Shown in pieces: positions 5,634 through 24,301 of a stretch of DNA of 64,000 nt; within the stretch, counting starts at the first letter, position 1; each line of letters opens with the position of its first letter. Made by a program: the position numbers and the translations under genes. The notes beneath the pieces were generated by a model that worked only from the letters and a program-made list of their open reading frames with translations, was not told the DNA's origin and made no database searches. This DNA is from Pontiellaceae bacterium B12219. Lineage in GTDB: Bacteria > Verrucomicrobiota > Kiritimatiellia > Kiritimatiellales > Pontiellaceae. The stretch lies in assembly GCA_029432795.1 (NCBI GenBank), contig JARNMJ010000014.1:1-64000 (forward strand), in the 5' to 3' direction.

Positions 5634-7745
5634 CTATTTTGATAATTCGATATCGAGTTTCAGGAACCGGTTCACAGTTCCAAGGGTTGGAACCGTATTG
5701 GTGACACTTTCGAACTCAGCATCGAGGACTGCGGTACCGACCTCGACCACACCGCTGTTCGTCCAGGCCGGATTGATCAAGTTATCCGAGGAATTAACGG
5801 TATACGTCAATCCACGTTCAGCTGCATCAATGCGGCGATTGTACTGAATCGCAAAATCACTGCCGGAGATACCATGGCCGGGATACACCCCGTCATTTCC
5901 AAGGGTTGGAACACCGCCGAGGGCATATTCGGAAAGGTTGTTCAGTCCATCCAGATCGGGATCAGCAAACAGGTCGGCATCGGTTCCGCTCAGCCCCGGG
6001 TAGTTTGTCATCCAAAGATAATACGCATCGAGCGTTCCATTATCGGTATATACCTGCCGGATCTCCTCCTCTGCGGCCGTGGCGTCCGCCGTTGCATAGA
6101 GGACAACCTGCCCGCCGGCCAGCAGACCGCGCGAAGCCAGACTGGACCAGTCGAGCGTCAGAACACTGCCATTGTCTGAAATCTCCGCATATTCATCAAG
6201 CGCCTGATATTCAAATGAAACGGTATAAGGAATTTCCAATCGGATACTGAGCGAGGGATCCACACGCGGCACACCATCCATTCCGATCAGCCGCAGAGCA
6301 ATGTGGTGATCATATTCATCCATACGAAAGTAGAACCGGGCATAATCCAACGATTCCTCAGAAACCTCCACCACGGAACCGTTCTCTTCGGCTGAAAACT
6401 GTTCCAGGGCATCTATGCCGTACCCGTCAAAAATCCTTAAAATCACACTGGAATCTCCATCCGAATAGGTTCCGATATGCTCGGCACCGTTCAAAACGAG
6501 GCTGGAGATGGTGCCATCAGACTTCCAATCCATGGAAACACCGACCGGGGCAACTGCCGTCGCCAGATTATAACCATCGATACGGGCACCTTCCCCCCCT
6601 TCTGCAAAACCGCTGATCTCCAATCGGTCACCTACGCGCAAATACACATTTTTCACGGTCCGTTCCATCCGATTCACGGAAAGAGCCTCCGAACTTCCGA
6701 GCATCCGGTCCGCCAGCCAGGCATCCACCAACCGGTCATTCAAATAAATCTTAAATGCAGCCTCACCGTCTGTTTCATCAAAATAACCAACGGTCAGATC
6801 ATAGTACCCCGGCAGCATTTCGGTGAGTATTTCAGAAACGGATCCGGCAGCACCCTGCAGCACCACCAGTTCTCCGCCCGATGCCGCGCTGTTGGTTTCA
6901 ACCGCATACCCATCGAGTACCATATTTTCCGCTTCAAAACCGAACGTAATTATCTTTGCGATATGAATGTAATCGACATCCAGCTCAGTCGTACCTTCAG
7001 AATCCCGTAATTCAATGGTGTTGAGACCGTCAAGAAGTACGGACTCCACCGCCACCTCCTCCCAGCTTGTCGAAACCGAATTCACCGTGCCGACCTGATT
7101 GCTGTTCACAAACACACCCATCGTGCGGTCACCGCTCGGAACTTTAACTCCGAAAGACAAAATGTAATCCCCGCCCGCAGCATCCACGTTCCATGTCACA
7201 TTAAAGTTTTCATTTCCATCGAGGTATTCACCCCCGGACGCTGCGGCATTCGTTTTAACACCGCCATTCAGGTAGACCGCATCCTCAGCTTCAAAGCTGA
7301 AGGTGGTCACGTCGGAAATGAATACATAATCCACATCCGGCTCGGCCGTACCTTCCGTATCCCGAAGCTCAAGCGTATTAATCCCGTCCACCATGGCCGC
7401 CTCAACCGTGATCTCCTCCCAGACAGTGGATATACTCGAAACCACCCCGACCTGAGTCCCATTCACAAAGACCCCCATCGATCGTGTTCCGGCACCGGTA
7501 CTGGGCACCGACAGACTGAACGTCAGCAGTTTGGCTCCGGCGTGTGTATCAATATTCCAGGTCAGATTAAAACTCCCGTTTCCGTCCACATAACTTCCGC
7601 CCGATGCGGAAGCGTCAGCACTTATACTGCCGTGCGCAATCACCGCATCCTCAGCTTCATGAAAGGCGGCCTCTGCGGTCGAGGCCATGAACAGAGCAAA
7701 AACCGTAACCACTCCGAATACGTTTATGTTTTTCAATGCAATCAT
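5634..7745 (-). CDS. Secreted triple-CBM protein with unknown module (locus 1)
   Basis: 703 residues with a signal peptide ending AEAA. Three tandem carbohydrate-binding-like beta-sandwiches (CBM6/35 style) follow: about 28-150, 151-272 (both with EAEDAV and DVDYxxI) and 275-400 (EAENMV). Next is a ~170-residue module of unknown family (about 405-570) containing RIFDGYG and FRMDEYDHHIALRLIG. The same module occurs in the proteins at 15915, 7757 and 18540. The C-terminus has a YALGG linker and the common beta domain. The start has GAGGAAAA 5 nt upstream. Only 11 bp separate it from the upstream glycosidase-like gene, so it is the second gene of that operon. No catalytic residues are recognisable; it probably binds a polysaccharide at the cell surface. 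Confidence 0.8.
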   Translation of the reverse strand: MIALKNINVFGVVTVFALFMASTAEAAFHEAEDAVIAHGSISADASASGGSYVDGNGSFNLTWNIDTHAGAKLLTFSLSVPSTGAGTRSMGVFVNGTQVGVVSSISTVWEEITVEAAMVDGINTLELRDTEGTAEPDVDYVFISDVTTFSFEAEDAVYLNGGVKTNAAASGGEYLDGNENFNVTWNVDAAGGDYILSFGVKVPSGDRTMGVFVNSNQVGTVNSVSTSWEEVAVESVLLDGLNTIELRDSEGTTELDVDYIHIAKIITFGFEAENMVLDGYAVETNSAASGGELVVLQGAAGSVSEILTEMLPGYYDLTVGYFDETDGEAAFKIYLNDRLVDAWLADRMLGSSEALSVNRMERTVKNVYLRVGDRLEISGFAEGGEGARIDGYNLATAVAPVGVSMDWKSDGTISSLVLNGAEHIGTYSDGDSSVILRIFDGYGIDALEQFSAEENGSVVEVSEESLDYARFYFRMDEYDHHIALRLIGMDGVPRVDPSLSIRLEIPYTVSFEYQALDEYAEISDNGSVLTLDWSSLASRGLLAGGQVVLYATADATAAEEEIRQVYTDNGTLDAYYLWMTNYPGLSGTDADLFADPDLDGLNNLSEYALGGVPTLGNDGVYPGHGISGSDFAIQYNRRIDAAERGLTYTVNSSDNLINPAWTNSGVVEVGTAVLDAEFESVTNTVPTLGTVNRFLKLDIELSK
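5678..5692. repeat. 15-bp dispersed palindrome, copy 3
   Basis: TTCCAAGGGTTGGAA inside the CBM gene; coding frame gives VPTLG. The 15-mer is identical to the one at 5897. Confidence 0.7.
5897..5911. repeat. 15-bp dispersed palindrome, copy 4
   Basis: TTCCAAGGGTTGGAA, second identical copy 219 bp away in the same gene and frame (VPTLG). Confidence 0.7.
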
Positions 7746-7756: not shown

Positions 7757-10700
7757 TTAAAGATTATCGTTGGTTTTGAGCACATATTCAGGACCAAGCA
7801 CGATAAACTGAGTCTCCAGCATTGCACTGCCCCCGCCACTCACCGTCACGGCATTCGCACCGCCCGCGACCGAGAAAGACGTGTTCACAACCGGCAGAGT
7901 ACCGAGCAGGTTCCAGTTGTTGTCATAGTGCTGTGCCGTGGAACCACCGTAATATTCCAGATATTCCCCCGGGCCAACGGTGCCTGTAACCGCCAGCGAT
8001 CCACCACTGCCCAGCGATATCGTCGGGTTACTGAGCGAAGCACTGCCTTCATGATCTACACGGATCACAAAATTCAGAGCCTGCGCTGCTTCAGGATTAT
8101 TGAGTGTCAGCGTGGTTCCGGCAGTAATCGTCTGCTTACGGGCATGCGTTCCTTTTTCCTGTTCAATATAAAAGGGAAGATCGGATCCGTCGGTCCGGCC
8201 CATCACATGATGCGGGGTCCAGACATATTTTCCCAGGGCATTGGTACTCAACACCAGGGCTTCTTCGCTCTCATAATGCCCCCCGTTCTTCCACATGAAA
8301 GAATCGACATAGGCCACATCGTCGTCATGAAACATCGGAGCCAGTTTAATCCAGTCGCCAAACAAACTATTCATTTCATCAAAAAGACCATGATCCTCCA
8401 TGACCTGCCGGGAAATTCCCCGGCCGCTCATCGGCACCATGAAAAACGGGCGGAATCCATTCACCATAATGCTTTCATGCACATGGAAATGGGTGTCCAG
8501 CCGGCTGGTTGCCAGATAAGAGCTGTGCAGTTCATCCGTGCGGATATCAATGTTCATCGCAAAATAGCTCAGCGAAAGATCGTCCCGGATACCGCTGAAG
8601 TCCTGCTCAAAATTGGCGGCAATACTTTTACCGACCCGAGACGAAGAGCCCGGAACGGTCATTTGGCTGTAGTAAAAATTCAGCAGTTCCCGTTCAATCC
8701 AGGGCAAGGTGCGGTGAATCTCCGGCCCGTCGAAATGCATGTGGCCCAGTTCGAGGTTATTCGCCATCCGAGTATATTCCAGCACCATTTCCTCCATCAG
8801 GCTGTTGGTCTGGCCCAGATCATATTCGGGAATATAGTTCTGACCGTAGGAGCAGAAGAGTCCGACCGTTTCCTCTCCCGCACCATGTGAAAATGCATCC
8901 GTGCCCTCAAAACCGCGCGTGCAGTCCTCCAGCACCCATACACCCTCTTCTGTACGGCTGATCCGGCCGGCCCGCACAATCTCTTCGCCGATCCGGAAAT
9001 AGTTATAAAATGAGATCCCGTGCGCATGGGCAATGCCCTGCCCCAACAGCGGAGGCACTGTGCCGGGCTCCGGACGGAAAAGCAGACGGGTTTCAGTGCT
9101 ATCCACCGCGTTCTCCAGCGTACCACGACCCCAGCTTGCCAACCGGCGGTCCACCGTGCCTACCACATAATCCGGATCGTGTTTTCCGATGCCGAAACTG
9201 ACCATATGCAGCCGCAGCTTCACCCCTTGTGCGGCAAGATAATCCGCATAGGCTTTCAGATCGCTTTCACCATTAGGAAATACATCCGTATTCACATGGG
9301 TCTGTCCGTTATATTTCGGCCAGTATTCGCCGCGCCAGGTACGGCAATGCAGATATACCCGCTTCGCATTGTTCGGGAAAACGATGGTATCAGTCAGGCT
9401 GTAGAGCTCCGCCTCGGAATCCGCTTCAAGAATCACCTCATTGAGATCCACAATATTGGTGCGATAGTGTTCGACCCAGTTCAAAACATCCGTTTCGGTC
9501 CAGGTTGTGAACCCTGCCGGATGCGGCAGGTTTTCATTGGCCCAGATGGATGCCAGACAGTTGTCGAGCTCAGCACCGTCGAGCGCTCCGTCATAAATCG
9601 CCACACCACCCCGTTTGCCGTCCAGCGTCTGCCCCCAAAGATACTGCCAGCGGAAATAGACCGGATCGCTGCCGGTGGAGTAGATGACATCATCCAGATC
9701 TTTAAAACCGATGGACGCATTGCTGTAGAGTTTCAGATAAAATCCATAGGCCTGCAGCTCCTCTTCAGGAATCCCTTCAACATTAATCAGATGAATCGAA
9801 ACATACCGGTCATACGCATCAATGCGCACTGTGAAGCGCGGCAGCCCACCGGATTCCGAAATCGTCAGCGTGTCCCCGGCAGTAACAACATGTTCCATTT
9901 TAGTGGAAGAATAGTTCTTCCCGTCAAAGTGGCGGAGATAAAACCCGTCGGATGAATGCGTATCAAGCCGGTCGACCCCGTTAAGGATCAGTGTTGCGGG
10001 TTCTCCATTGAAGTCAAAGGTGAGCTCTGAATTTACGGTTCCGTTTAAGACCGTAATCGAACCGGCGGAAGCAAGGCCGTTTTCCAGGGCCGACACATCG
10101 ATTCCCAGCGCAGTAATCAGATCTGATGCCGTGTATATTCCCGCATCCAATGCTGTTCCCCGAATGGTGGCTGCATTAAAGGTCAGAGCATGCTCCAGCG
10201 ATAAAACACCCTGGCAATCCAGCGTACTTGAAGAACTGGAAAAATCACCGGCAAACGCAAGTGTTCCTGATGCCCCGACATCAAAACTGCCGGTGCCGAA
10301 GCCCCTCCCCTCCAAACGACCGCCCTGCACATCCCACAGACCGAAAAACGCATTTAAAGCATCTGTAATGCGAACGGTGCCGTCCGTAATTTGAAAAGAG
10401 GTAATCGAATTACCCGATAGCAGTTGTGAATTCAGTTCCACTGTTCTGTTGGAAAAGCCGTCATTGCTCAGATGAATGCTCCCTGACCCCGTCAGGGTAC
10501 CGCCGACCGTAGCTGTACCGCCTCCTCCGTTTATAATTGAGGTGCCGTCTTCCATAATGAGATTCACTGAAATGGTGCTGCTTCCATTCTTGAGTTTAAA
10601 CTCAGACGAATCCCGGATCGTGAGCGAATCACCGCCAAACATTCCGCCGGATGTCGGGGTGCGCGTGTCTCCTCCGGTATCATTGATGTAAATATTTCCA

Positions 10701-10858
10701 GAGCTTGGAACGGCCGTATCGGACCAGTAACCGACCGTATGCCAATCCGGACCTCCAGCCGGCATGGCTACAGTTTGATAAACGGTGGCGGCGTGAGTTC
10801 CCATACATACGCCGGTGAGCAGCCCCCACAACAGGATAGGCTTACATTTATACATCAT
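7757..10858 (-). CDS. Secreted TIM-barrel-like putative glycosidase with beta-helix repeat (locus 1)
   Basis: 1033 residues from the ATG at 10858 (GAGGGA 6 nt upstream). The signal peptide ends near THA. Residues ~25-280 are one copy of the beta-strand repeat unit (YQTVAMP, GGDSLTI, LIMEDGTS, GTGSFDVG) that occurs three times in the divergently encoded protein at 11237. Then come the shared unknown module (about 295-400; HFDGKN, RIDAYDRYVSIHLI), a large alpha/beta domain (about 440-880) and a terminal beta domain. The alpha/beta domain has GVKLRLHMVSFG, RIGEEIVR, CTRGFEGTDA and HFDGPEIH; the acidic pair in HFDGPE is a plausible active site. I cannot assign a CAZy family. Its paralogue at 18540 lacks the N-terminal repeat unit. 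The first gene of an operon with 5634. Confidence 0.75.
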   Translation of the reverse strand: MMYKCKPILLWGLLTGVCMGTHAATVYQTVAMPAGGPDWHTVGYWSDTAVPSSGNIYINDTGGDTRTPTSGGMFGGDSLTIRDSSEFKLKNGSSTISVNLIMEDGTSIINGGGGTATVGGTLTGSGSIHLSNDGFSNRTVELNSQLLSGNSITSFQITDGTVRITDALNAFFGLWDVQGGRLEGRGFGTGSFDVGASGTLAFAGDFSSSSSTLDCQGVLSLEHALTFNAATIRGTALDAGIYTASDLITALGIDVSALENGLASAGSITVLNGTVNSELTFDFNGEPATLILNGVDRLDTHSSDGFYLRHFDGKNYSSTKMEHVVTAGDTLTISESGGLPRFTVRIDAYDRYVSIHLINVEGIPEEELQAYGFYLKLYSNASIGFKDLDDVIYSTGSDPVYFRWQYLWGQTLDGKRGGVAIYDGALDGAELDNCLASIWANENLPHPAGFTTWTETDVLNWVEHYRTNIVDLNEVILEADSEAELYSLTDTIVFPNNAKRVYLHCRTWRGEYWPKYNGQTHVNTDVFPNGESDLKAYADYLAAQGVKLRLHMVSFGIGKHDPDYVVGTVDRRLASWGRGTLENAVDSTETRLLFRPEPGTVPPLLGQGIAHAHGISFYNYFRIGEEIVRAGRISRTEEGVWVLEDCTRGFEGTDAFSHGAGEETVGLFCSYGQNYIPEYDLGQTNSLMEEMVLEYTRMANNLELGHMHFDGPEIHRTLPWIERELLNFYYSQMTVPGSSSRVGKSIAANFEQDFSGIRDDLSLSYFAMNIDIRTDELHSSYLATSRLDTHFHVHESIMVNGFRPFFMVPMSGRGISRQVMEDHGLFDEMNSLFGDWIKLAPMFHDDDVAYVDSFMWKNGGHYESEEALVLSTNALGKYVWTPHHVMGRTDGSDLPFYIEQEKGTHARKQTITAGTTLTLNNPEAAQALNFVIRVDHEGSASLSNPTISLGSGGSLAVTGTVGPGEYLEYYGGSTAQHYDNNWNLLGTLPVVNTSFSVAGGANAVTVSGGGSAMLETQFIVLGPEYVLKTNDNL
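10696..10710. repeat. 15-bp dispersed palindrome, copy 5
   Basis: TTCCAGAGCTTGGAA in the repeat unit of the glycosidase-like gene; coding frame gives VPSSG. The paralogous repeat protein at 21506 keeps the PSSGN residues but uses codons that break the palindrome. Confidence 0.7.
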
Positions 10859-10915
10859 TTTGATTCCCTCTCTTTTGCTTTCAACCTTGTTGCAATATGC
10901 CCCTATTGACCAACA

Positions 10916-10959
10916 CTTATAACAGGTGTTCAAAGATTGGAAATCCTATGTTTGGAGGA
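10916..10959 (-). promoter_or_regulatory. Leftward promoter of locus 1 with shared operator
   Basis: On the minus strand TCCTCCAAACATAGGA (10959-10944) is centred 33 bp upstream of the centre of the -10 hexamer TATAAG (10921-10916). The predicted leader is ~51 nt, the same as for the paralogous operon at 20924. The proximal arm of the repeat falls about where a -35 box would lie, and no TTGACA-like box is present. Confidence 0.7.
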
Positions 10960-11099
10960 GCATAAAGACCTATCGTACTCCTTCGAACCGCATAACCGCT
11001 GTAGAAGACGGCATTACAGCGGAACCTCATCATTCCGTCGCCACAACCTGAATAAAACTCGGAGTTTCAACCTATTCTTAAATGATTAAAGCGACTTCA

Positions 11100-11143
11100 T
11101 CCTCCAAACGTAGGATGTAAAAACCGTAATTCCCTGATATCTT
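11100..11143 (+). promoter_or_regulatory. Rightward promoter of locus 1 with shared operator
   Basis: TCCTCCAAACGTAGGA at 11100-11115 (arms extend to CATCCT/AGGATG) is followed by -10 TATCTT at 11138-11143, centre-to-centre 33 bp. The 16-mer differs by one base from the operator of the divergent operon. Predicted leader about 87 nt. Confidence 0.7.
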
Positions 11144-11236
11144 AGTACTTATCTGGAAAAAGTGTCGAATGGTCTCTTGCACACGTGTGCTGGGATTTTA
11201 CGGCAAAAAAAGAGAAAATAACACGAGGAGATCGTT

Positions 11237-13975
11237 ATGAAACAATCACGCTCAGCACATCAACTCCTGCGCATTGGCGCATGGAGCACAGCCCTGGCCT
11301 TCGGCCTTGGAGCTCAGGCCGCAGACATATATCAAACTGCAAACATGCCAATAAATACCAACTGGGAGATGTCTAATTTTTGGGATAACGCAGAGTCCCC
11401 TTCTGCCGGAAATGATTATTTTAATGCAACAGGCAATGACACACGCTCTCCCACCGGTAACGACCCGGTTTTCGGCGGAGATTCCCTCACCATAACCAAT
11501 GGCTCACGATTTCAGATGAAACACGGTGGCACCGCAACGGTGAACCTGATTTTTGAAGATGGAAGCCGGATGACCCATGGCGGTGGAGGCGGTGGTCTTG
11601 ACGGCACGATCACTGGAGATGGAAGCCTCACCATTGACATGGTTTCCGGCCAGACCCGAAATATTACGATTAACTCACTGATCGAGCCCAATACCCTCTC
11701 ATCCATCACAGTACTCGGCGAAAGTATCTTAACGGTAGCCAACTCCGCCAACACGTATACAGGTATATGGAATGTGGCATCCGCCACGTTGAAAGGTGAA
11801 GGGCTGGGACAGGCTTCCGCCTTTATTGTCGGCGGAACCAGCACGCTGGATTTCGATGCCGGCTTTACAAACACCAGCGCTGATATCTCGATTTCTTCCG
11901 GCGGCAACTTTATCCTGGACCAGGATGTTGAAGTTTTCTCAGCCTCTATCTGGGGAATCGCCCTGACCAACAAGACGGGCGGCTACACTGGCGCAGAGTT
12001 GAAGGCAGATCCAACCTTTGGAACCGCTTTTGTCGGATCCTCCGACGACAGCACGCTGACGGTGCATTATACTCCGCAGGTCGTGGTAGGCGACACGATC
12101 TATCAGATTGCCAACATGAGTGCTGTAGCAACAGATGGCTGGAACGACACCAACTTCTGGGATAACGGCCTGGCCCTGATTGCTACCAATGACTACATTA
12201 ACAACAACTTCAACCCCACCAGTGTAAACGAAATCGCGTGGGACACCCGTACACCGGCGTCGGGCTCGGACACCTTTGGAGGCCACTCCCTGACCATGAC
12301 CAACGGCGCCAATTTTGCCATCAAAAACAACGGCCCCTGGACGGTTGATAACCTATACATCTGGGCAGGCAGTTCAATCCGGCTTGCCGGCGGTAGCTCA
12401 TCCGCTCTGGGAGGTGCACTGAACCTGAAAGGAACCGGATCAGTTGATCTCAATGCAGGAGCGTTCGGCCGGATGTGCACGATCTCTTCGCTGATGTATG
12501 CCGACCCCACCATTTCCAATATTGTGATAAATATTGGCGAAACTTCACCGACCAATACAACACAGGCCATGACTGCTGGGTTTGCCATCAACAGCGCACT
12601 CAACGACTTCGCTGGTCTTTGGATCGTCGAAGCCGGCCTATTGAAGGGAAATAACTTCGGTAACGGAAGCTTCCTGGTCACGGATATGGGTGTCCTCGAC
12701 TTTGACTACAGCTACATCAACGCCTCGGCCGACCTTAGGGTTGAGGCCAATCCGACCAATGCAGCACAGAATGGCATGCTGTTGCTGGATAGCAATGTTC
12801 AGGTCGGCTCGGCGACACTCGGCGGGGTAAGCCTTCCCGAAGGCTCTTATAGCGGCGCTGACCTGAAAGCGACCTACGGAGCAGTGATTCACGAAGATAC
12901 CAGTGATGTCGCCGTTCTGGCTGTGGGTGCCTCTATTGCCCTCCCGGTATACCAGACCGGAAATCAACCGACAGGCCCCGGCTGGACAGATCCAACCACA
13001 TGGGACAACAATATGGCTCCGACCAACCTGTTCGCCTATATTAACGGCAACTATGAAGCCCGCTCTCCCAACGTTTCCAATCCGGTATTCCCCGGCCTTT
13101 CCTTTACCATCATCGACAATGGCTATCTCAAGTTCAGACACGCCGGCACAGCCACCATCTCGAATCTAACGATGTATGCAGGAACCGAAATCGTTGCGGT
13201 GACCGGAAATCAACTTGATGGAGATCTGACCGTAAAAGGTTCTGGTTCATTCACCTTCGACACACAGGATGATGGAAGAACACTGACCATCCTCTCGCCA
13301 GTCACCGTGGACAGCACTGTAACCAGCATTGTAATTACCTGCTCCAACGCATATGAGGATAGCGAGAGAAATGCCACAGGAACAACCCTCACCGACACGG
13401 GCAACACCTTTACCGGCACCTGGGTTGTTGATAAAGGCTACCTCAGTGGCCCCGGCCTTGGCCTGGGAAGTTTCCACGTTAAGGAAACAGGATACCTCTC
13501 CATCGGCGCGGCCTATTCCAACGAAACGGCAGACCTGACGATTGATGTGAATCCCACAAATTCCGCAACCGGTGGCCAGATGCTGCTGGAATACGACATG
13601 ACCGTAAGCAAGGCCACTATTTGGGGAACACAGCTTGATGCAGGTGAATATACAGGGGCCTACCTGAAATCCACCTTTGGTGACGCATTCGATGCGGCCA
13701 GCTCCGACACAGCTGTTCTGAAAGTCACCTTCATTCCTGACATTCCGGAAATTGGTGATATTGAGTACACCACCAGTGGATCTGACCTCGTTATCGGTTT
13801 TGTCGCGACCAACTATGTAAGCTACACCATACTGGCCGACGACAATCTCGTTCTTGATCCGGCATGGCCCTTCACGGTCACCAACATTGTCGGCGTAAAC
13901 GGTCCTGTAGCCATTACGAACGATACATCTGCTGATCCGAATATGTTCTATAAGGTCGAAGCAGAACTGGACTGA
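11237..13975 (+). CDS. Secreted three-repeat beta-helix (autotransporter-strand-like) protein
   Basis: 912 residues with signal peptide MKQSRSAHQLLRIGAWSTAL and onward, cleaved near AQA. Three tandem units of ~280 residues follow (starting near 33, 285 and 570). Each opens with YQxxNxP...W.d...WDN and contains GGxSLT, a strand-rich Asn/Gly/Ser/Thr segment, a LKGxGxGxxxFxV turn and a closing ExKA.YG.AF. This resembles autotransporter-associated beta-strand repeats of adhesin-like or surface proteins, but there is no beta-barrel translocator. The last ~75 residues are the common C-terminal beta domain (YTILADDNLV...FYKVEAELD). GAGGAG lies 7 nt before the ATG. It is monocistronic, has a strong terminator, and is paralogous to 21506. 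Possible role: surface display or binding of the substrate handled by the divergent glycosidase operon (inference). Confidence 0.75.
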   Translation: MKQSRSAHQLLRIGAWSTALAFGLGAQAADIYQTANMPINTNWEMSNFWDNAESPSAGNDYFNATGNDTRSPTGNDPVFGGDSLTITNGSRFQMKHGGTATVNLIFEDGSRMTHGGGGGGLDGTITGDGSLTIDMVSGQTRNITINSLIEPNTLSSITVLGESILTVANSANTYTGIWNVASATLKGEGLGQASAFIVGGTSTLDFDAGFTNTSADISISSGGNFILDQDVEVFSASIWGIALTNKTGGYTGAELKADPTFGTAFVGSSDDSTLTVHYTPQVVVGDTIYQIANMSAVATDGWNDTNFWDNGLALIATNDYINNNFNPTSVNEIAWDTRTPASGSDTFGGHSLTMTNGANFAIKNNGPWTVDNLYIWAGSSIRLAGGSSSALGGALNLKGTGSVDLNAGAFGRMCTISSLMYADPTISNIVINIGETSPTNTTQAMTAGFAINSALNDFAGLWIVEAGLLKGNNFGNGSFLVTDMGVLDFDYSYINASADLRVEANPTNAAQNGMLLLDSNVQVGSATLGGVSLPEGSYSGADLKATYGAVIHEDTSDVAVLAVGASIALPVYQTGNQPTGPGWTDPTTWDNNMAPTNLFAYINGNYEARSPNVSNPVFPGLSFTIIDNGYLKFRHAGTATISNLTMYAGTEIVAVTGNQLDGDLTVKGSGSFTFDTQDDGRTLTILSPVTVDSTVTSIVITCSNAYEDSERNATGTTLTDTGNTFTGTWVVDKGYLSGPGLGLGSFHVKETGYLSIGAAYSNETADLTIDVNPTNSATGGQMLLEYDMTVSKATIWGTQLDAGEYTGAYLKSTFGDAFDAASSDTAVLKVTFIPDIPEIGDIEYTTSGSDLVIGFVATNYVSYTILADDNLVLDPAWPFTVTNIVGVNGPVAITNDTSADPNMFYKVEAELD

Positions 13976-14370
13976 GTTTTGCAACAGATAAAATAACATT
14001 AAACCGGCCGGAGTACTCCGGCCGGTTTTTTATTGCGAAGCATTGGGATTAATATCCCGCAGCTTGCTGCGTTTGAATTGCAGGGCTGAAATGGCTCTGG
14101 GACGATGTCTTTCAGCCGAGCGGCGGAAAAAAAATGATTGCTCTTCGCGCTCATTTACTTTCCCCATCTGCTTGCAGCGGGGAGCCTCATTCCATTCTCC
14201 GCTTACATGAGGGAAGAGCACATGCTTTTTACTCAGGAATGTGTCGCTTCTTTGTCCGCGGCAAACCACTGGATCTGCCTAAGCAAAGCTGACTGGTTTC
14301 CGGATAAAACCGTTGCCCATCCGAGCACAGTCCGTCGAGTACGAGAGCCGCTGAGCGGCGGCCACTGCAG
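13976..14370. other. Gene-free region after the repeat protein
   Basis: 395 bp between two converging genes. Apart from the terminator at its start and a small palindrome GCCGCTGAGCGGC (14347-14359) near the phosphatase stop, I see no convincing gene. Short open frames here have neither ribosome binding sites nor recognisable products. Confidence 0.5.
14001..14032 (+). terminator. Rho-independent terminator
   Basis: A perfect palindromic GC-rich hairpin (13-bp arms, AACCGGCCGGAGT and complement) runs into TTTTTTATT, 26 nt after the stop of the repeat protein gene. Confidence 0.9.
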
Positions 14371-15846
14371 CTAGGACTCCAGCTCAATCGTTTCCAGCTC
14401 TTCACCGCGCTCATTGATCAACCGGAAAGTCGCCCGCGGAACGCCGTCGACCGCACGAAAGGAAAATTCACCAAAGGCCCATGACCTACTGGGCAGTCCA
14501 AACAGCTGAGCACTCCGGTCTTCTCCGAATGCGCCCGGCCCCGGAACACCGCCCAGTGTTGCGGCCTCAAACTCGTAGATCTTTTTATTTCCAGGCCTTG
14601 GAATGGCAAAGCCGCGTGCGCCGTGCCGGTCGCCGGAAAGCAGGATCACCTGCGAATCCTTCTTGGCGTCGATCATCTTGAAAATCTCTTCCCGACCTTC
14701 CGTATCCCACGTTCCCCAGCTGTCTTTTCCGTCCGAGATATAGTCGCTCCACATCGTACCGCTGCTGAGCAGAATATAGGGAGAGGTCGACTCGCTGATC
14801 TGCTGTTTCAGCCAGTCCATCTGCTCTTCACCAAGGAATGAATTCAGCTGTCCCCGCTGTTCATTGATTCGGCAGGAGCGCGTATCCAGCGCGATAAAAT
14901 GCACCGGCCCGATTTTAGTCTGAAAATAGATTCCGTTTCGTTCCGCATCGCGATCCGGATTGTTCCAGTGGGTTTTCCAGCTTTTGCGCAATCCGTCGAC
15001 ATCGATCGGATTTTTACTGTTCGCGTGTGTTCCGGACGTATCGTTGCCCCAATAGTCGTGATCATCCCAGGAGGCAAAAACCGGAATATTCGCGGTCAAC
15101 TGCTGCCATGGAGCCGAGAGGTTGCGCAATTGGTAGTCAGCGTTAATCAAACTAAAATCGCACTTACGTCCATCCACAGCAGAATCGCCGAGCACCAGCA
15201 TCGCGCGGTTGTCCCGATCCTGCACCAACTGCATCAGCTCCGGACGGTACAGCCCGACTTTATGAAAACAGGTTCCAAAGGCGATCTTAAACGGCTCTTC
15301 TGAAAGCGATTCCGGAGGCGTCATAAAGTCGCCCCCTCCGAGCGCGCGGCCCTTTGCATCCATCACGGTGTAGGTATAAAGTGTGTCCGGAACAAGTCCC
15401 GTACAACGTACCGATTGAATTCGCCCGGGCGTTTCCGATTTAAACGTTTTAACCGTTTCTCCTGATTTAGGCCCCATTTTAATCGCAACAGAAACCGGCT
15501 CGGGCAGATGCAGCCAAACCGAAACGCCGGCAGATGTAATATCGCCCAGCATCGGCCCGCCCAGCTTCGCGCGGTTGCTTTTTCGACAGTGCGCTGCCAG
15601 CGCCACCTCCGGATTCGGTCCCGTCAGCGCCGCCCGGCAGCCGGTATAAAAATCAAGCACCGCCTGCGGTTGATCAACGTATTGCTTCATGATCCTTAAA
15701 TCAATTTCCAGCGTTCCCTTGTGCGCGTCCTTCAGCGAGACAATCCGCGATGCTGCCGTTTCTTCGGCGCGCGCCAATACCCCGCCAACAGTCGTGGCGG
15801 CCATAACGATAAACTGTTTCCGATTCAGGCGGGAATATTCAGGCAT
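14371..15846 (-). CDS. PhoD-like metallophosphatase, exported
   Basis: 491 residues. PhoD-family phosphodiesterase/alkaline phosphatase: N-terminal Ig-like domain (about 90-190), then a calcineurin-like fold with LVLGDSAVDGR, the metal-binding motif ASWDDHDYWGND, and LSGDRHGAR. The N-terminus LNRKQFIVMAATTVGGVLA resembles a Tat signal with an R-K pair rather than R-R. The start at 15846 has AAGGAAG 6 nt upstream. It follows the CBM gene at 15915 on the same strand with a ~68 bp gap, so it is probably the last gene of the locus-2 operon. PhoD enzymes cleave phosphate mono/diesters, so the protein may release phosphate from a decorated glycan or teichoic-type polymer (inference). The first metal motif is non-canonical (GDSAVDG rather than GDxIYAD). 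Confidence 0.85.
   Translation of the reverse strand: MPEYSRLNRKQFIVMAATTVGGVLARAEETAASRIVSLKDAHKGTLEIDLRIMKQYVDQPQAVLDFYTGCRAALTGPNPEVALAAHCRKSNRAKLGGPMLGDITSAGVSVWLHLPEPVSVAIKMGPKSGETVKTFKSETPGRIQSVRCTGLVPDTLYTYTVMDAKGRALGGGDFMTPPESLSEEPFKIAFGTCFHKVGLYRPELMQLVQDRDNRAMLVLGDSAVDGRKCDFSLINADYQLRNLSAPWQQLTANIPVFASWDDHDYWGNDTSGTHANSKNPIDVDGLRKSWKTHWNNPDRDAERNGIYFQTKIGPVHFIALDTRSCRINEQRGQLNSFLGEEQMDWLKQQISESTSPYILLSSGTMWSDYISDGKDSWGTWDTEGREEIFKMIDAKKDSQVILLSGDRHGARGFAIPRPGNKKIYEFEAATLGGVPGPGAFGEDRSAQLFGLPSRSWAFGEFSFRAVDGVPRATFRLINERGEELETIELES
14589..14603. repeat. 15-bp dispersed palindrome, copy 6
   Basis: TTCCAGGCCTTGGAA in the PhoD-like gene; coding frame gives IPRPG. It is the last consensus copy before a ~19 kb gap. 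Confidence 0.7.
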
Positions 15847-15914
15847 GATATCTTCCTTATTGAGGTTATCTCTCGTGCATCGAGTTGAACATGAAGGAAC
15901 CTTGTACCTTCCGC

Positions 15915-18527
15915 TCACTCATGCCGTATCTTAAGCTGGATAAATTTTTCCGGCACGTCCGTCGCGTAGCGATTGGTTACGGGTTCGTAGCCATCGACCG
16001 CGGGACCTATGAGAATTTGATCCTGCATATTGGTGGTGGAAACCGAAACGACAAGGTTTGTTGAATCGATCAACAGATATTGCAGCCCCTGGTCGATATA
16101 GTCCGTCCGACGGTGATGAACCAGCTCAAACCAGTTCGTTCCTCCTGCAACCACCGGTTTAGCCGTTACACCTGAATCCGTATCCGAGTGGGTCGGATTC
16201 ATACCAAGTGCATATTCCATCAGGTTGTTGAAACCATCGCCAATTCCGCCGTTCTCCACATCGGCGGTAAGCAACGCATCGTCACCGATCAGTCCGTAGC
16301 CTGCGGCCCAGGCGGAATAACCGCCGTAACTGTAATAGAGTGCCGACACCTCGCCATCCGTGAGTGCATGGTTATAGACACGCACATCGTCCAGCGAGCC
16401 TTCATAATAGTTGCCGTCAATCCCGCTGCCGAACCGGGCTTCGGTAACGGTGGAAAGCGACCGGGTATTTTCCGATCCGGAATGCCACAATGAACCGTTC
16501 AGGTAGATTTTCATGATACCGGCATCAGCATCCTTGGTGAATACCCAGTGATTCCATTCGCCCTCAAATTCCGCCGGGGAAGCATTGGTTTGAATCCTGT
16601 CATAACCGCTGCTGTTGCCTGCATCCCAATAGACCACCGATGAACTCCAGGGCAGATGAATGTTCAGAATCCGGTGGCCCTCCGAATCCTCTGCATAGAA
16701 TACTGAATCCTGCCGGGGCTGTTGATCCGGATCGCCCTTGACCCACATTGAGATCGTGACTTCATTACTTACCGAACCAAAGACGTTTGCAGGAATGGTG
16801 ACTGTATCCGAAGAGATACTTCCGTTGAACTCCAGCGCGCCGCCCATGCGGCCACTGGTCCAGACTCCGCCGGACAAGGCAGCATCAAACCCATAGCCCG
16901 AGGCATCGGCAACCTCCGTTCCACTGCCGTCATCCATAGGCCAATGGGCAACCAGACGATCTTCGGCCACCGGAATATTTCCATGGAGTGCTTCAATCTC
17001 AGAAACTGCCGCACTGTTTTCCGCAGGTGTTCCATCTGCATAAAGTGCGAATACGCCGCCGGGGAAACGGTTGCGTTCGCCCAGTTTCGTCCAGTCAAAC
17101 CGCAACTGCGTATCGGACACGGTCGCCTTGGCCCATTCGTCGAGGGTCACCACATTCACCGTGTTTGACACCGGCATGGTTACCCGGATATTCAGGGAGT
17201 TGTCATAAAGCGGCAACTGCTCCACTCCGATCAGGCGGAAAAGAAGATGGTGATCGTATTCCTCCATACAAAAATACATTTTCACGTCGTCCCAAGACTC
17301 TTCGATAACCTCCACAATGCCGTCCCGCTCGGTTCCATAGATCATATTCCAGCTCTTCATATCGTCACCGTTGAAGATGCGTAACTGGGCCAGCCCCGTT
17401 TGAGCACTGAGCTGTTCCACTCCGCCGAGCTGCAGGCTGGAAATTATGCCGCTCGTATTCCAGGTCATGGAATGCTCGACCGCTTCCTTCGATGAAGGCT
17501 CAAAGGCAACACGGTCCACCCGGCAGGGTTCCCCACTGTCTGAATACGCGAGCAGTTCAAGGGACTGGCCTGAACTGATAGAAACCTTTCGGGTTTGATG
17601 CGTCACAAGGTTTCCGGAATCCGGATCCGGGCTTCCCATGTTGCGGCTGGCTGACCAGGCATCTATCAACTCACCATCGATATAGAGTTTATAAACCGCT
17701 TCACCGTCATTCTCGTCAAAGTACACAGTCTGGATATCATAGAATCCGGAACCCAAGAGCGCGAGTGTCCCTGATGCTGTTCCGGCGTCTCCAGCAAGTA
17801 CGATCACCTGCCCATTCGACGCAACCGACTGCGGCTCAATGATGAATCCGTCCAGTGTCATGGCTTCCGCCTCGATGGAGGAAGGTTCAAGCAGTTCCAC
17901 CAAATTGTGTCGGTACCCCCCCGCACCGGTTGTATTCCCGCCCAGTTCAACCCCGATCAGCTCTTCGATTTGCAGGTTGGAGGTGTCATTGATCCCGAAG
18001 TTAAGCGTCAGAAAAAGGCTGTCCGTCTGTCCGGGCTCTGTATCCGCGAAATAGTTAAAATAAATATCAACATAAACCTCGCCGGTCGTGTCATCCTGAA
18101 CAAGCTCAACTGAATTAATACTGAAAAACTCATCGCCGACGTTACAAACACTCTTCAGTTTAATCGTTCCGGTATAGGTAATACTGCCATCCATAAACGA
18201 AATGATTCCTGACTCAAAGGTATACTGCCCATCGTCGTATTTAAACCCCCGATCACCCGTTTCGTTGAAGATGTAATAATCGCTCTGTGCATTGACCGTA
18301 TTGATGGTGATGGTGTAATCACCATTTGTAGATTGTTCGCCGGAACTGCCGCCGCTGATGACTTCACCGACTGCCATCGTCGTCACCGGGGTATTATCCA
18401 AAATCGGATTATTCCCGGACTGATCGGACACCGGACTGCTGACGTTGAAATCCTGATAGTAAAGGGTTGCCGCCCGGCTCGTCGCCACACCTGCCAGGAG
18501 AACCAGTAATATATGTATAATTTTCAT
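15915..18527 (-). CDS. Secreted CBM / LamG protein with unknown module (locus 2)
   Basis: 870 residues with a signal peptide ending SRA. Order: a beta-sandwich of unknown type (about 20-215); a CBM6/35-like domain (about 218-345, SIEAEAMTLDGF); the same unknown module as in 5634 (about 350-515, RIFNGDD and CMEEYDHHLLFRLIG); a LamG/concanavalin-like domain (about 535-745, VAHWPMDDGSGTEVAD, ISMWVKGD, LDDVRVYNHALTDGEV); a YALGMNPTHSD linker and the common C-terminal beta domain. AAGGATAG precedes the ATG. It is the second gene of the locus-2 operon, 12 bp after 18540, matching the gene order of locus 1 although only the module and terminal domain are clearly shared. Substrate unknown. Confidence 0.8.
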   Translation of the reverse strand: MKIIHILLVLLAGVATSRAATLYYQDFNVSSPVSDQSGNNPILDNTPVTTMAVGEVISGGSSGEQSTNGDYTITINTVNAQSDYYIFNETGDRGFKYDDGQYTFESGIISFMDGSITYTGTIKLKSVCNVGDEFFSINSVELVQDDTTGEVYVDIYFNYFADTEPGQTDSLFLTLNFGINDTSNLQIEELIGVELGGNTTGAGGYRHNLVELLEPSSIEAEAMTLDGFIIEPQSVASNGQVIVLAGDAGTASGTLALLGSGFYDIQTVYFDENDGEAVYKLYIDGELIDAWSASRNMGSPDPDSGNLVTHQTRKVSISSGQSLELLAYSDSGEPCRVDRVAFEPSSKEAVEHSMTWNTSGIISSLQLGGVEQLSAQTGLAQLRIFNGDDMKSWNMIYGTERDGIVEVIEESWDDVKMYFCMEEYDHHLLFRLIGVEQLPLYDNSLNIRVTMPVSNTVNVVTLDEWAKATVSDTQLRFDWTKLGERNRFPGGVFALYADGTPAENSAAVSEIEALHGNIPVAEDRLVAHWPMDDGSGTEVADASGYGFDAALSGGVWTSGRMGGALEFNGSISSDTVTIPANVFGSVSNEVTISMWVKGDPDQQPRQDSVFYAEDSEGHRILNIHLPWSSSVVYWDAGNSSGYDRIQTNASPAEFEGEWNHWVFTKDADAGIMKIYLNGSLWHSGSENTRSLSTVTEARFGSGIDGNYYEGSLDDVRVYNHALTDGEVSALYYSYGGYSAWAAGYGLIGDDALLTADVENGGIGDGFNNLMEYALGMNPTHSDTDSGVTAKPVVAGGTNWFELVHHRRTDYIDQGLQYLLIDSTNLVVSVSTTNMQDQILIGPAVDGYEPVTNRYATDVPEKFIQLKIRHE

Positions 18528-18539
18528 ATGATTCTATCC

Positions 18540-20924
18540 TTACAGATTGTTGTTGGATTCCAGAACGTACTCGGTGCCCAATGTAATATACTGCACATTG
18601 AGATCCGGTGTGCCGGATCCGCTGCCCGCCGCCGTAGTCACCGTATTGGCACCGTTATTGACCGAGAAGCTGGTCGCTGAAACCGGCAGGGTACGGTCCA
18701 GGTTCCAGTTGTTGTCATACACATTCACTGAACTTCCGCCGGCAAACTTCAGGTATTCGCCGGGTTCAACATCCCCCGAAACAGACAGGGTTCCGGTACC
18801 GTTCACCGTGATCAGCGGATCTTCCAACGTCGTGGAGGTTTCCACGACCCGGATCACCACCTGCGGCTCCTGTGTGCTGTAAGGATTGTACAGCTCCATC
18901 GTTGTGCCGGAGGTTATCTCCTGAAAGCGCGGCACCGCCCCCCACTCCTGCTCAATCTGATAAAACTCGTCCTCTCCCGAAGTGCGGCCCATGATGCGGT
19001 GAGGCGTAAAGATGTAGTCGCCATTGCTGTCTTTGCCGAGCACCAGCACATCTTCGCTTTGGTAGTGTCCGCCGACCTTGGTCATCATACTGTCAATGTA
19101 GGCGACATCAGCATCTTCCAGCACCGGGGCGATCTCAAGCCAGTACTGGAGAAGCTGAAGTACGTCGTCGCTAAGGCCATGCGAAGCAAGGAGTTCCTCG
19201 CTCACTCCATAACCGCTCTGCGGACAACCCAAAGTCACCCGTCGGCCATTCAGCAGCACACCCTCAGCAGCGTGGAAGTGGGTGTCGAGCATGCTGGTTG
19301 CCAGTGCAGGACGACTGAGATATTCCAAACGGATGCCGACTTCAATCGGGAAATAGCTGTAGCTCAGGTCGTCCTTGACGGAACTGAATTTCTGTTCGAA
19401 GTGGGCGGAAATACTTTGCCCCACCCGGCTGGACGTGGTGGGATGATCCACATAGCTGTAAATGCGATTGAACAGCTCCCGGTTCGTCCAGAAATCGATC
19501 GCATGAATTTCCGGGCCGTCAAAATGTAGATGCCCCAGCTGAAGATCATTGGCGAATGTCGCATATTCCAGGGCCAACTCATCCATCAGGCTGTTTGCCT
19601 GATCAAGATCGTATTCCGGAATATAGTTCTGACCATAGGCACAGTACAGACCCAGCATTTCGTCAGCAGCAGCATGTGCCGCAGCATCCGTACCCTCAAA
19701 CCCGCGTGTGCAGTTTTCGAGAATCCAGACGTCATCATCCGTGCGACTGAATGAGCCCACCCTAATAATCTCATCGCCGATTCTGAAATAATTGTAGTAT
19801 ATATTAGCAGGAGTGTGAGCGAGGCCGTGTTCACCAAGCAGCGGAATGGTCTCGCCCGAATCCGGACGGAAACGAATTGTGGATGCCGACGCATCGACCG
19901 CTTCCTCAAGGATTCCGGCGCCCCAGGAAGCCAGACGGTCATCTACACCTCCGACGATATAATCCGGGTCGTTCTTTCCGATACCACAGCTGACACTGTG
20001 AAGCCGCAGGTACACCCCATTCGTCCGAAGATGATTGGCATAAGCCAGCAGATCCGCCTTGCCGGCGGGAAATACATCGGTATTCACATGAACCCGCGAA
20101 TTATAATTGGGCCAGTATTCACCCCGCCAGGTTTCGGTATGCAGCTTGACCCTCTTGATGTTGTTGGGAATCACATAGGAGTCCGTCAGATTGTAGAGCT
20201 CTGTCAGTGAGGACGCCTCCAGTTGCACCTCACTCATATCGTTATTCTGCGCCGCATAGGCATCAACCCAGGCCAGCACGTCGTTCGTGGTCCAGCTCGT
20301 ATATCCGGCTGGACGAACCATGGTCCCGGCTGCATTCTGTTCGGACCAGACTTCGGCCAGGGCCGCATCCAGTTCGCTTCCACTCAGCGTCCCGTCATAT
20401 AAGACAAACCCACCGAGCCGCCCGTCATGCAGGGAGCCCCAAAGCCAGCGCCATTCCATTTTAATCGTTGTGCCGACACCGTATGGGCTCCAGCCTGATG
20501 TGCTGTCCGCAATATTACTGAGCGAAAAATGGCCGACATCGCCACTGGATTTAAGGTACAGGTTAATCCCCCAGTTGCGGTCATTTGCGCCGATGCCCTG
20601 CACATCGGTCAAGTGGATTGCCAGATGCTTATCATAGGAATCGATACGGAAAGTAAAACTCGGTGATCCGGCGGGATGCGAGACAGTGATCTCATTTCCC
20701 GAGGTCGAGATATCGGTGAGGAGGGTGTCCGTAATGTCCTCGCCATCAAAATAGCGAAGGTGAAAACCCGCCGAAGCATTGGATTCGTGCACATCATGAT
20801 CGCCCAGGACCAGCGTGACCGGTTTGGCGGAAGCATCAAATGTGAGTTCCGAAGCGCCATGGCAGGGCAAAACCGCCAAGCCGGCCCAAAACAGCAACTG
20901 AACATGTAGAAAGTGTTTTATCAT
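18540..20924 (-). CDS. Secreted TIM-barrel-like putative glycosidase (locus 2)
   Basis: 794 residues from the ATG at 20924 (GAGGAAA upstream); signal peptide ends near CHGA. It consists of the unknown module (about 25-170, YFDGED, RIDSYDKHLAIHLTD), the alpha/beta putative catalytic domain (about 200-650) and the C-terminal beta domain ending EYVLESNNNL. It is a clear paralogue of 7757 through its whole length: both carry TWRGEYWP, VNTDVFP, LASWG, NYFRIG, CTRGFEGTDA, YGQNYIPEYDL, HFDGPEIH, SSRVG and HRIMGRT-type motifs. It lacks the N-terminal beta-helix unit. The CAZy family cannot be assigned by eye; the invariant HFDGPE is the best active-site candidate. First gene of the locus-2 operon. 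Confidence 0.75.
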   Translation of the reverse strand: MIKHFLHVQLLFWAGLAVLPCHGASELTFDASAKPVTLVLGDHDVHESNASAGFHLRYFDGEDITDTLLTDISTSGNEITVSHPAGSPSFTFRIDSYDKHLAIHLTDVQGIGANDRNWGINLYLKSSGDVGHFSLSNIADSTSGWSPYGVGTTIKMEWRWLWGSLHDGRLGGFVLYDGTLSGSELDAALAEVWSEQNAAGTMVRPAGYTSWTTNDVLAWVDAYAAQNNDMSEVQLEASSLTELYNLTDSYVIPNNIKRVKLHTETWRGEYWPNYNSRVHVNTDVFPAGKADLLAYANHLRTNGVYLRLHSVSCGIGKNDPDYIVGGVDDRLASWGAGILEEAVDASASTIRFRPDSGETIPLLGEHGLAHTPANIYYNYFRIGDEIIRVGSFSRTDDDVWILENCTRGFEGTDAAAHAAADEMLGLYCAYGQNYIPEYDLDQANSLMDELALEYATFANDLQLGHLHFDGPEIHAIDFWTNRELFNRIYSYVDHPTTSSRVGQSISAHFEQKFSSVKDDLSYSYFPIEVGIRLEYLSRPALATSMLDTHFHAAEGVLLNGRRVTLGCPQSGYGVSEELLASHGLSDDVLQLLQYWLEIAPVLEDADVAYIDSMMTKVGGHYQSEDVLVLGKDSNGDYIFTPHRIMGRTSGEDEFYQIEQEWGAVPRFQEITSGTTMELYNPYSTQEPQVVIRVVETSTTLEDPLITVNGTGTLSVSGDVEPGEYLKFAGGSSVNVYDNNWNLDRTLPVSATSFSVNNGANTVTTAAGSGSGTPDLNVQYITLGTEYVLESNNNL

Positions 20925-21505: not shown

Positions 21506-24202
21506 ATGAAGCAATCACGATCACTGAAACACATCCTGCGCGTCGGCACATGGAGCACCGTCCTGGCATTCGGCCTGGCGGCACAAGCGGCAGAATTCTA
21601 CCAAACCCGATCAATGAATCCCGGAGAGCACTGGAACGAAGCATACTGGACCAATGCAACCCATACGGTGACCAATACACCGTCCAGCGGAAACACCTAT
21701 ATCAATGATGTCGGCGGCACCAGAACACCAAGCGATGGCGCGAATTTCCTAGGGGACCTGCTTACGATCAAATCCGGCCGACAGCTTCAATTTAAGCATG
21801 GAAGCAGCTCCTCCGTGACAGTAAACCTGGTCATGGAAGATGGATCCACAATGGCGAATGGCAGCAGCACCGGAAAGATGGAAGGTACGCTCAACGGTAG
21901 CGGCGCTATTACGCTGGATACTACACAGTACGCTGGCCGCCCGATTTTTATCGGATCGCTGCTGGAATCAGACAACACCTTTTCCGAATTCGAAATCGTC
22001 GGAAACGAGGCAAACGTTGTGACGTTTACCAATTCCGCCAACACCTTTACCGGGGTATGGGATGTTGCAAGCGGCACCCTCAATGGCGCAGGGTTTGGAC
22101 AGGCGTCGGGCTTCATCGTTGGCGGCAGTGGACGCCTCGACTTTGATGCCGACTTTGTAAACATGAATGCAGACATCACGATTTCTTCCGGCGGTGAGTT
22201 CCTGCTTGATCAGAATGTGGAGGTCTATTCGGCACAAATCTGGGGCATCACACTCACCAACAACACCTACACCGGTGCCGAACTCAAGGCCAACCCCGTC
22301 TATGGAGCCGCTTTTACCGGCTCCTCCGACGCAAGTACCCTAACGATTTCCTACACCCCGCCGGTCATCGTCGGCGACACCATCTACCAGACCGCTGACA
22401 TGCCGTCCGGGACAGACTGGAATGATCCTTCCTACTGGGACAACGGACTGGCACCCATCTTCAGCAACGACTATGTTAATGCAGGAGCAGGCTGGGGCAC
22501 CCGCACTCCGGGTTCGGGTAGCGGAAGCTTCGGAGGGAACTCGTTAACGCTGACCAACAGCGCCAAACTGACCATTAAAAGCAACGGCCCCTGGACCATA
22601 GATAATTTCAATATCTGGGTAGGATCTTCCATCAGCAGCGGTGGACCTTCTGCTCCAACGATTGCCGGTGGACTGAATCTGAAAGGATCCGGATCGGTTG
22701 TTCTGGATGCACAGTTCCCCGGTAGAATGACCACTATTTCCTCACTCATCGATGCGGATACAACGGTGACCAACATCATTATTCAGATTGGACAAACTGC
22801 ACCGACCAATACGGCCCAGGCCCTGACGGCTGGCTACATCATGAGCGGCCTGCTCAATGATTTCAACGGGGTTTGGGTTGTCCAAGAAGGCCTCTTGAAA
22901 GGCGAAAACTTCGGGGCCGGAAGCTTCCTCATCACCGACATGGGCTATCTGGACTTCGATGCCGACTACAACAACAGCAGCGCAAGCCTAACGATCGAGG
23001 CCAACCCGACCAATTCCACTCAAAGCGGCATGATCCTGCTCGACCAGATCGTGACCGTCGGCTCCGCCACCATCTGGGGCGAAACCCTTGCGGATGGCCT
23101 CTACTTTGGCGGGGACCTGAAAGCACATCCAATTTATGGCGGAGCCTTCGACCCAGCATCCTCCGATGGTGCTCTTCTCGCCGTTGGGGCGGAAATTATT
23201 ACACAAACCGAAGGACACTCTGGCAATGAGAGTTGGGAAACGACCAACAAATGGTCAAATGGTGAAGCCGCATCAACCAACTTCCACTATATCAACAACC
23301 TAGGGGCGGGAACGCGTACACCCAATTACTCCAACCCTACATTCCCGGGTAAGTCGCTAACGCTCGATAATGGTTCTAGTCTTTTGCAAAGGCACACCGG
23401 AACAGGGACGATCTCTAACATGACGATGACTGCGGGTTGCGCGATTTCCCTAGCCACAGGTGGCATCAAAGTATTGGACGGAGATATTGAACTGAAGGGA
23501 TCAGGTTCGTTCACCTTGGACTTCGGGTTTGAGGGCCGCACCTGCGACATCCAATCTCTGTTGACCGTTGGTGAAAGCATTCACACCATTGAACTCAACA
23601 GAAACGGCAATTGGAATACCAATGCATTCAAAACTTCCGGATACACGCTCTCAAATCCTCTCAATACGTTCGATGGCTTGTGGCACGTTCAGGATGGATA
23701 CCTGAAAGGGGTTGGATTCGGCACCAGCAGCTTCCTTGTTGATGACTGGGCTTATCTGGATTTCGATTCGGATTACAGCAACACGAATGCCTCTCTGACC
23801 GTCACCAATGGGGGCATGGTCCTACTCGACCAGACCATCACGGTTGGTGCCGCAAACATCAATGGCGATGAACTGGATGCCAATACCTATTCCGCAGCCA
23901 CCCTCATCTCCACCTATCCAGATGCCTTCGATGCCACCAGTTCGGGAACCCTTATCGTAGACAAAGGTCCGGTACCGGAAATCGGTGATATCACCATCGG
24001 CGTTGCCGATGGCAGTATGGTATTCGGCTGGGACGGATCCGCCTTGGCCAGCTATACTGTGCAGGCAGACAACGATCTGGTTTTCCCTCCGGGTTGGAGC
24101 AATGTGGTCGGCCAGACCGACATCCCCGGCATCGACGGCCCGATGGGCGTGACCAATGCCGTGACAGATCCTAAGATGTTCTACCGGGTGATCGGCAACT
24201 AA
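21506..24202 (+). CDS. Secreted three-repeat beta-helix protein (locus 2)
   Basis: 898 residues, paralogue of 11237. The signal peptide (MKQSRSLKHILRVGTWSTVL start) is nearly the same. Three ~280-residue repeat units start near 32, 285 and 565 with FYQTRSMNP, IYQTADMPSG and TEGHSGNESW; each contains GGNSLTL-type, LKGxxFGxxSFLV and YxGxxLK motifs. The common C-terminal beta domain follows (YTVQADNDLVFPPGW...FYRVIGN). CGAGGAGA lies ~8 nt before the ATG. The strand-rich Thr/Ser/Asn/Gly composition suggests a right-handed beta-helix exposed outside the cell. No catalytic signature is visible. It is monocistronic, with a terminator at 24230, and is followed by the two-component system. Confidence 0.75.
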   Translation: MKQSRSLKHILRVGTWSTVLAFGLAAQAAEFYQTRSMNPGEHWNEAYWTNATHTVTNTPSSGNTYINDVGGTRTPSDGANFLGDLLTIKSGRQLQFKHGSSSSVTVNLVMEDGSTMANGSSTGKMEGTLNGSGAITLDTTQYAGRPIFIGSLLESDNTFSEFEIVGNEANVVTFTNSANTFTGVWDVASGTLNGAGFGQASGFIVGGSGRLDFDADFVNMNADITISSGGEFLLDQNVEVYSAQIWGITLTNNTYTGAELKANPVYGAAFTGSSDASTLTISYTPPVIVGDTIYQTADMPSGTDWNDPSYWDNGLAPIFSNDYVNAGAGWGTRTPGSGSGSFGGNSLTLTNSAKLTIKSNGPWTIDNFNIWVGSSISSGGPSAPTIAGGLNLKGSGSVVLDAQFPGRMTTISSLIDADTTVTNIIIQIGQTAPTNTAQALTAGYIMSGLLNDFNGVWVVQEGLLKGENFGAGSFLITDMGYLDFDADYNNSSASLTIEANPTNSTQSGMILLDQIVTVGSATIWGETLADGLYFGGDLKAHPIYGGAFDPASSDGALLAVGAEIITQTEGHSGNESWETTNKWSNGEAASTNFHYINNLGAGTRTPNYSNPTFPGKSLTLDNGSSLLQRHTGTGTISNMTMTAGCAISLATGGIKVLDGDIELKGSGSFTLDFGFEGRTCDIQSLLTVGESIHTIELNRNGNWNTNAFKTSGYTLSNPLNTFDGLWHVQDGYLKGVGFGTSSFLVDDWAYLDFDSDYSNTNASLTVTNGGMVLLDQTITVGAANINGDELDANTYSAATLISTYPDAFDATSSGTLIVDKGPVPEIGDITIGVADGSMVFGWDGSALASYTVQADNDLVFPPGWSNVVGQTDIPGIDGPMGVTNAVTDPKMFYRVIGN

Positions 24203-24263: not shown

Positions 24264-24301
24264 TTCGTATATCGACTCACCAGCTGTTCGTGGTATATAA
24301 A

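Follow-up and report, generated by a model that had tools for sequence, protein, structure and literature searches.

The window, the whole stretch of 64,000 nucleotides that was analysed, comes from a marine, Pontiella-like Kiritimatiellota whose closest named relative is Pontiellaceae bacterium B12227. Two paralogous genes, referred to here as P1 and P2, lie on its reverse strand, each with a partner gene directly downstream. The features of the locus are given below, with (+) for the forward and (-) for the reverse strand.

5634..7745 (-): downstream partner of P1; the beta-sandwich is present here too, matching the family profile at E 1e-16
7757..10858 (-): P1, about 1033 residues, with the domains of P2 and an additional N-terminal module; ORF 7757-10933
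8606..8608 (-): P1 counterpart of P2 E487 (NFEQ)
8714..8737 (-): HFDGPEIH of P1, the predicted nucleophile motif
10115..10831 (-): N-terminal module of P1, 41% identical to the triple-module ORFs 11237/21506
15915..18527 (-): downstream partner of P2, a beta-sandwich like the N-terminal domain of P2, plus LamG
18540..20924 (-): P2, about 794 residues, a predicted secreted GH-D-like glycosidase; ORF open to 20999
18543..19055 (-): C-terminal beta-domains of P2, residues 601-771
19056..19610 (-): barrel of P2 from helix 3 to strand 8, residues 416-600
19395..19397 (-): E487 of P2, inferred candidate for the general acid/base
19503..19526 (-): HFDGPEIH of P2, with D446 (19518-19520), the predicted nucleophile, at the end of strand 4
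19620..19943 (-): insert of P2, residues 305-412, RIGDEII...CTRGFEGTDAAAH; resembles Rcc01698_C and phage tail proteins
19956..20243 (-): barrel strands 1-3 of P2, residues 205-300, including TWRGEYWP, VNTDVFP and H286
20394..20855 (-): N-terminal beta-sandwich of P2, mature residues 1-154; also present in both downstream partners
21506..24202 (+): triple-module secreted protein, divergently oriented, with no Pfam match
24290..26329 (+): sensor histidine kinase, conserved next to family genes; its F5/8-type-C-like match is weak
26304..27014 (+): response regulator, with a receiver and a LuxR-type HTH

The initial annotation had pointed to two paralogues, at 7757 and 18540, sharing about 450 residues and seven sequence motifs. 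Both open reading frames were confirmed, and all seven motifs (7/7) are present in both proteins. The similarity is real but extends further than had been proposed: P1 and P2 are 52% identical over 772 aligned residues (E = 0), since the N- and C-terminal beta-domains are also common to both. The Met codons read from the sequence at 10858 (P1) and 20924 (P2) are each followed by a signal-peptide-like stretch and are likely the starts of the two proteins. The additional N-terminal module of P1 comprises about 250 residues and is also part of ORFs 11237 and 21506 nearby.

Through whole-genome searches, matches to the family were found in 30 of 388 genomes sampled from the phylum and in 46 of 346 from the class. 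An alignment of 50 sequences from Verrucomicrobiota/Kiritimatiellota genomes was prepared, and its maximum-likelihood tree is divided into a close clade of 21, with P1 and P2 inside it, and a sister clade of 29 (support 100/100). Closer relatives of P1 and P2 are present in other species (L011, 90%, and L001, 80%, over the aligned region), and the duplication is therefore old. Two divergent members, L005 (on contig C217 of the same genome) and L038, have lost E449, the glutamate of HFDGPE, and carry Lys in place of H286, while D446 and E487 are retained; these two may differ in specificity from the other members.

The AlphaFold2 model of mature P2, built with the 50-sequence alignment, has a pLDDT of 93.1 and a pTM of 0.91. 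It consists, in order, of an N-terminal beta-sandwich, a (beta/alpha)8 barrel and C-terminal beta-domains, with a further beta-domain of about 100 residues between strands 3 and 4. The barrel strands lie at residues 209-212, 235-238, 282-285, 442-446, 474-477, 504-507 and 540-543, with the last at about 592. A glycosidase-type fold had been expected from the sequence, and the predicted TIM barrel, with its pLDDT of 93 and its strands in order, bears this out. The description of the shared region as an alpha/beta domain fits the barrel but not the part from NYFRIG to CTRGFEGTDA, which is the inserted beta-domain and lies outside it.

When the P2 model was compared with the PDB by Foldseek, GH101 (5a59, 3e-9), a GH36 galactosaminidase (9e-8), GH66 and GH97 were returned. 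A model of the sister-clade member L022 (pLDDT 83.7, pTM 0.87) gave GH36 as the best match (3e-17), followed by GH101, GH31 and GH129. GH101 and GH129 (NagBb, ZgGH129) are fold neighbours of the family, by 5a59 for P2 and by 5wzn and 8rzk for the sister clade; a GH129-like enzyme is known to act on desulfated carrageenan (PMC5698469). At 0.2-0.4, the global TM-scores are modest, which probably reflects alignments that cross several domains and the insert.

For profile-profile comparison, the insert was excised, the target families were gathered from related genomes and GH5 served as the control. With both clades in the profile, GH27 was matched at 92.8% (E 4e-7) and GH36 at 89.4% (2e-6), followed by GH97 (14.7%), GH31 (11%), the GH5 control (3.4%), GH101 (0.8%) and GH129 (0.2%). 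The close clade alone gave a weak match to GH36 (59%), 1.5% for GH27 and values near background for the others, so the strength of the GH27/GH36 match comes from the inclusion of the sister clade. A wide profile searched against the PDB reached alpha-galactosidases of GH36/GH27, at 4.5e-6 to 2e-4, through the block 'vNtkvFPnGeaDLkavadklhaaGlklg'. Fold and profile assign the barrel to the superfamily of the alpha-galactosidases, GH27/GH36, which on fold takes in GH101/GH129/GH97/GH31 as well. GH101 or GH129 as the family itself was rejected, as both are fold neighbours, yet their profile scores do not exceed that of the GH5 control.

The barrel of P1 and P2 has no above-cut-off match in Pfam or NCBIfam, and scans of the aligned relatives assigned their barrels to no family, with isolated weak matches only; one relative has a weak match to a beta-L-arabinopyranosidase model. 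The Pfam cut-offs for GH27, GH36, GH97, GH101, GH129 and GH31 are reached by 0 of the 50 members. GH27 (PF16499) matches none of them, and a Pfam GH27 search of the organism's own genome was also empty. GH36 (PF02065) and GH97 (PF10566) each match a single member below the cut-off, at E 0.078 and at E 0.027 (14.3 bits, the cut-off being 32.5), respectively, and GH101 (PF12905) and GH129 (PF11308) have no above-cut-off match among the 50. PDB sequence searches found no homologue spanning the domain. Matches to de novo TIM barrels in the PDB were set aside because they are repeat-summed over one strand-helix unit and do not reflect homology; those to B3/bromodomain chains (E>0.2) are due to chance, and Pfam matches such as SAM_PNT and DUF1604 (E about 0.1 or above) were disregarded. 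A tblastn search for a P1/P2-type protein on plasmids found none, and no description of the family was found in the freely accessible literature searched. Thus, the earlier statement that the domain matches no known family holds for Pfam and NCBIfam, but the superfamily (alpha-galactosidase, GH-D) can be placed. A new glycosidase family within a known superfamily is credible on these sequence comparisons, its newness being measured against Pfam and NCBIfam.

Three things link the family to GH27 and GH36: the barrel, the nucleophile Asp where strand 4 ends, and the block 'vN...FP.G..DL......h..G'. It differs from them in its low identity (about 10%), in the additional beta-domain that separates strand 3 from strand 4, and in lacking both the strand-2 DD pair of GH27 and the Lys two residues before the nucleophile. 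D446 lies at the final bridge of strand 4 in the P2 model, is invariant (50/50), and falls on the known nucleophile in both alignments: LGHLHFDG is paired with WGVDFIKLDG of GH27 and with IAYIKWDAN of GH36. GH97 (SusB, BtGH97b) is another fold neighbour, whose retaining members have their nucleophile Asp at the same site; it differs in its weak profile match, and the calcium-binding glutamates of GH97 are not recognised in the P1/P2 family.

The acidic residues D and E of HFDGPE had both been proposed as catalytic. The proposal stands for the Asp, which occupies the GH27/GH36 nucleophile site at the C-terminal end of strand 4, but not for the Glu, which is not invariant. E449 is Glu or Asp in 46 of the 50 members overall; in three of the 21 close-clade relatives it is replaced by Ala, Asn or Gly, which makes it an unlikely second catalytic residue. 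In GH27, the Asp of WRxxxD is the acid/base. A similar pattern, W...[STA][RQH]....D, is found in 27 of the 29 sister-clade members (24 of these with R), whereas no acid/base Asp of the WRxxxD or SDDTD type around strand 6 is conserved in the close clade, which includes P1 and P2. What is invariant there (21/21) is E487, located in the helix that follows strand 5. Since the R....D Asp is unconserved in the close clade and E487 is invariant, E487 is put forward as the candidate general acid/base, a better one than E449 as judged from conservation. The family, its barrel fold and superfamily, the position of D446 and the clade difference at the acid/base site are computed results.

The inserted beta-domain has likenesses of its own. 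Recurrent scan hits among the 50 members are CBM11 and, on the NYFRIG...CTRGFEGTDA block, Rcc01698_C and phage tail PHROGs. Rcc01698_C (PF23666) scores 20.4 and 21 bits on the inserts of P1 and P2, against a cut-off of 27 bits; it reaches E<0.1 in 27 of 50 members (best 2.5e-5), and all the scores given are below the cut-off. Further, phrog_1101 matches the insert in 22 of 50 members (best 1.1e-7), and Foldseek against viral models gave local matches over 91 columns at 3.0-3.2 A. The insert and these tail proteins have in common the pattern G-E...C-RG..GT...H, which contains E362 and R384, both invariant (50/50) in the insert. The source of Rcc01698_C is the gene transfer agent of R. capsulatus, where it belongs to the megatron baseplate protein (PMC7296036). 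The domain is part of the tail in phage and gene transfer agent proteins, whereas in P1 and P2 it is a single domain within an enzyme barrel. A direct tblastn of the insert against phages found none, and the link to phage tails is therefore remote. A phage-derived protein, as Rcc01698_C might suggest, was rejected, because the insert alone matches and the neighbours are carbohydrate enzymes. No insert of this type was recognised in GH101 or GH129, and it is not a known feature of GH27, GH36, GH97, GH101 or GH129. From its position in the model alone, it is probably a lid or a subsite.

In most of the Pontiella-type neighbourhoods examined, the gene directly downstream of a family gene is a partner whose product has a domain resembling the N-terminal beta-sandwich, with L089 and one L085 copy as exceptions. 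No barrel was found in the partner proteins at 15915-18527 and 5634-7745, and both end in an 'NNLxEYALGxxP' stretch. The secreted proteins encoded at 21506-24202 and 11237-13975 (+) are 53% identical and contain three repeats of about 290 residues each (YQT...W...W...TRTP..GG.SL), and a single copy of this repeat is fused to P1. The gene at 21506..24202 likely belongs to the same glycan locus; the triple-module proteins may have a surface or glycan-binding role in a Kiritimatiellota polysaccharide locus. Four other family-gene loci also contain the kinase, and three the response regulator. About 15 kinase paralogues (42-54% identity) are present in the organism's own genome, including on the three contigs with the main family copies, and such kinase/regulator sets possibly control many polysaccharide loci of the lineage.

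Sulfatases, SASA/GDSL/AXE1 esterases, GH116 and GH28 are encoded beside the relatives, and GH115 lies within the window. Two apparent fusions were seen among them: one ORF at L089:4293-7181 (-) joins GH28 and a sulfatase, and L001:15662-18700 joins GDSL and esterase-like domains with a sulfatase. A large protein with LTD, chitobiase C-terminal and CotH kinase domains (740-5443, -) adjoins the locus in the window. A PhoD-like phosphatase (14371-15918, -) is kept beside family genes in several Pontiella loci, and its target is possibly a phosphorylated or sulfated glycan. Cultured Pontiella are known to degrade sulfated algal polysaccharides (PMC10880615). Because of this lifestyle and the sulfatase and esterase neighbours, the substrate is probably a marine sulfated and/or acylated polysaccharide.

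Taken together, P1 and P2 are best read, with a probability of about 0.68, as secreted retaining GH-D-like glycosidases of an unclassified family that use D446 and E487 and act on a sulfated or acylated marine polysaccharide. Enzymatic activity and a retaining mechanism are both probable: D446, at the end of strand 4, would attack at the anomeric carbon, with E487, which closely follows strand 5, probably serving as the acid/base. The strand 3-4 insert would emerge at the active-site face and probably shape or cap the substrate site. The enzymes would probably remove alpha-linked (or stereochemically equivalent) sugars, together with the sulfatases and esterases encoded nearby.

A change in the second catalyst alone, with family and fold as described, is unlikely, though it is the strongest of the rivals. 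The enzymes would then be inverting, or the acid/base would be D524 (after strand 6), D296 or E449; D296 is invariant in the close clade (21/21), D524 is Asp or Glu in 20 of 21, and E449 is widely acidic, as given above. GH97 offers a precedent, for its catalytic carboxylates have shifted within the family and it has both inverting and retaining members (PMC2670981). The same family, however, argues the other way at D446: its retaining members have Asp at the equivalent site and its inverting members Gly (PMC2670981), while D446 is invariant at the nucleophile site of retaining GH27/36/97. Moreover, the three paralogues without E449 still have D446 and E487.

It is somewhat less probable again that P1 and P2 form a divergent subfamily of GH27, GH36, GH97, GH101 or GH129, or of a recently founded CAZy family. 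The superfamily similarity by fold and profile is clear, and the family libraries compared were Pfam and NCBIfam; nevertheless, none of the 50 members reaches the Pfam cut-offs, no PDB chain matches over the domain, and no such insert is known from those families. A catalytically dead GH-D-like barrel, acting as a carbohydrate-binding or scaffold protein, is improbable. The several additional beta-domains, the loss of the sugar-binding DD of strand 2 and of the K of KxD, and the change of H286 to Lys in L005 and L038 are in keeping with it. An Asp kept at the nucleophile site in 50 of 50 members across two deep clades, a clade-specific invariant Glu and the enzyme-rich loci in which the genes sit all speak for an active glycosidase instead.

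Beyond the preferred reading of P1 and P2 as active retaining enzymes, a broader proposal can be made only tentatively. The sequences would form a new GH family within the GH-D superfamily, or perhaps a pair of sister families. One clade would have kept the acid/base at the GH27-like R....D site, from which it would have shifted in the other to a Glu that follows strand 5; a phage-tail-like insert would have been added as a lid or subsite, and the target would be a marine sulfated-polysaccharide linkage without an assigned enzyme.

Kiritimatiellota degrade sulfated algal polysaccharides with large sets of enzymes, most of which are uncharacterised. The present family is directly testable, as its nucleophile can be named, there is a candidate for its acid/base, and both a partner gene and a regulator recur with it. 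If the proposal is true, a founding member would be added to an important superfamily, and the pair of clades would provide a natural experiment in the change of the acid/base of a glycosidase. The insert, likewise, would be a domain common to phage tails and polysaccharide enzymes.
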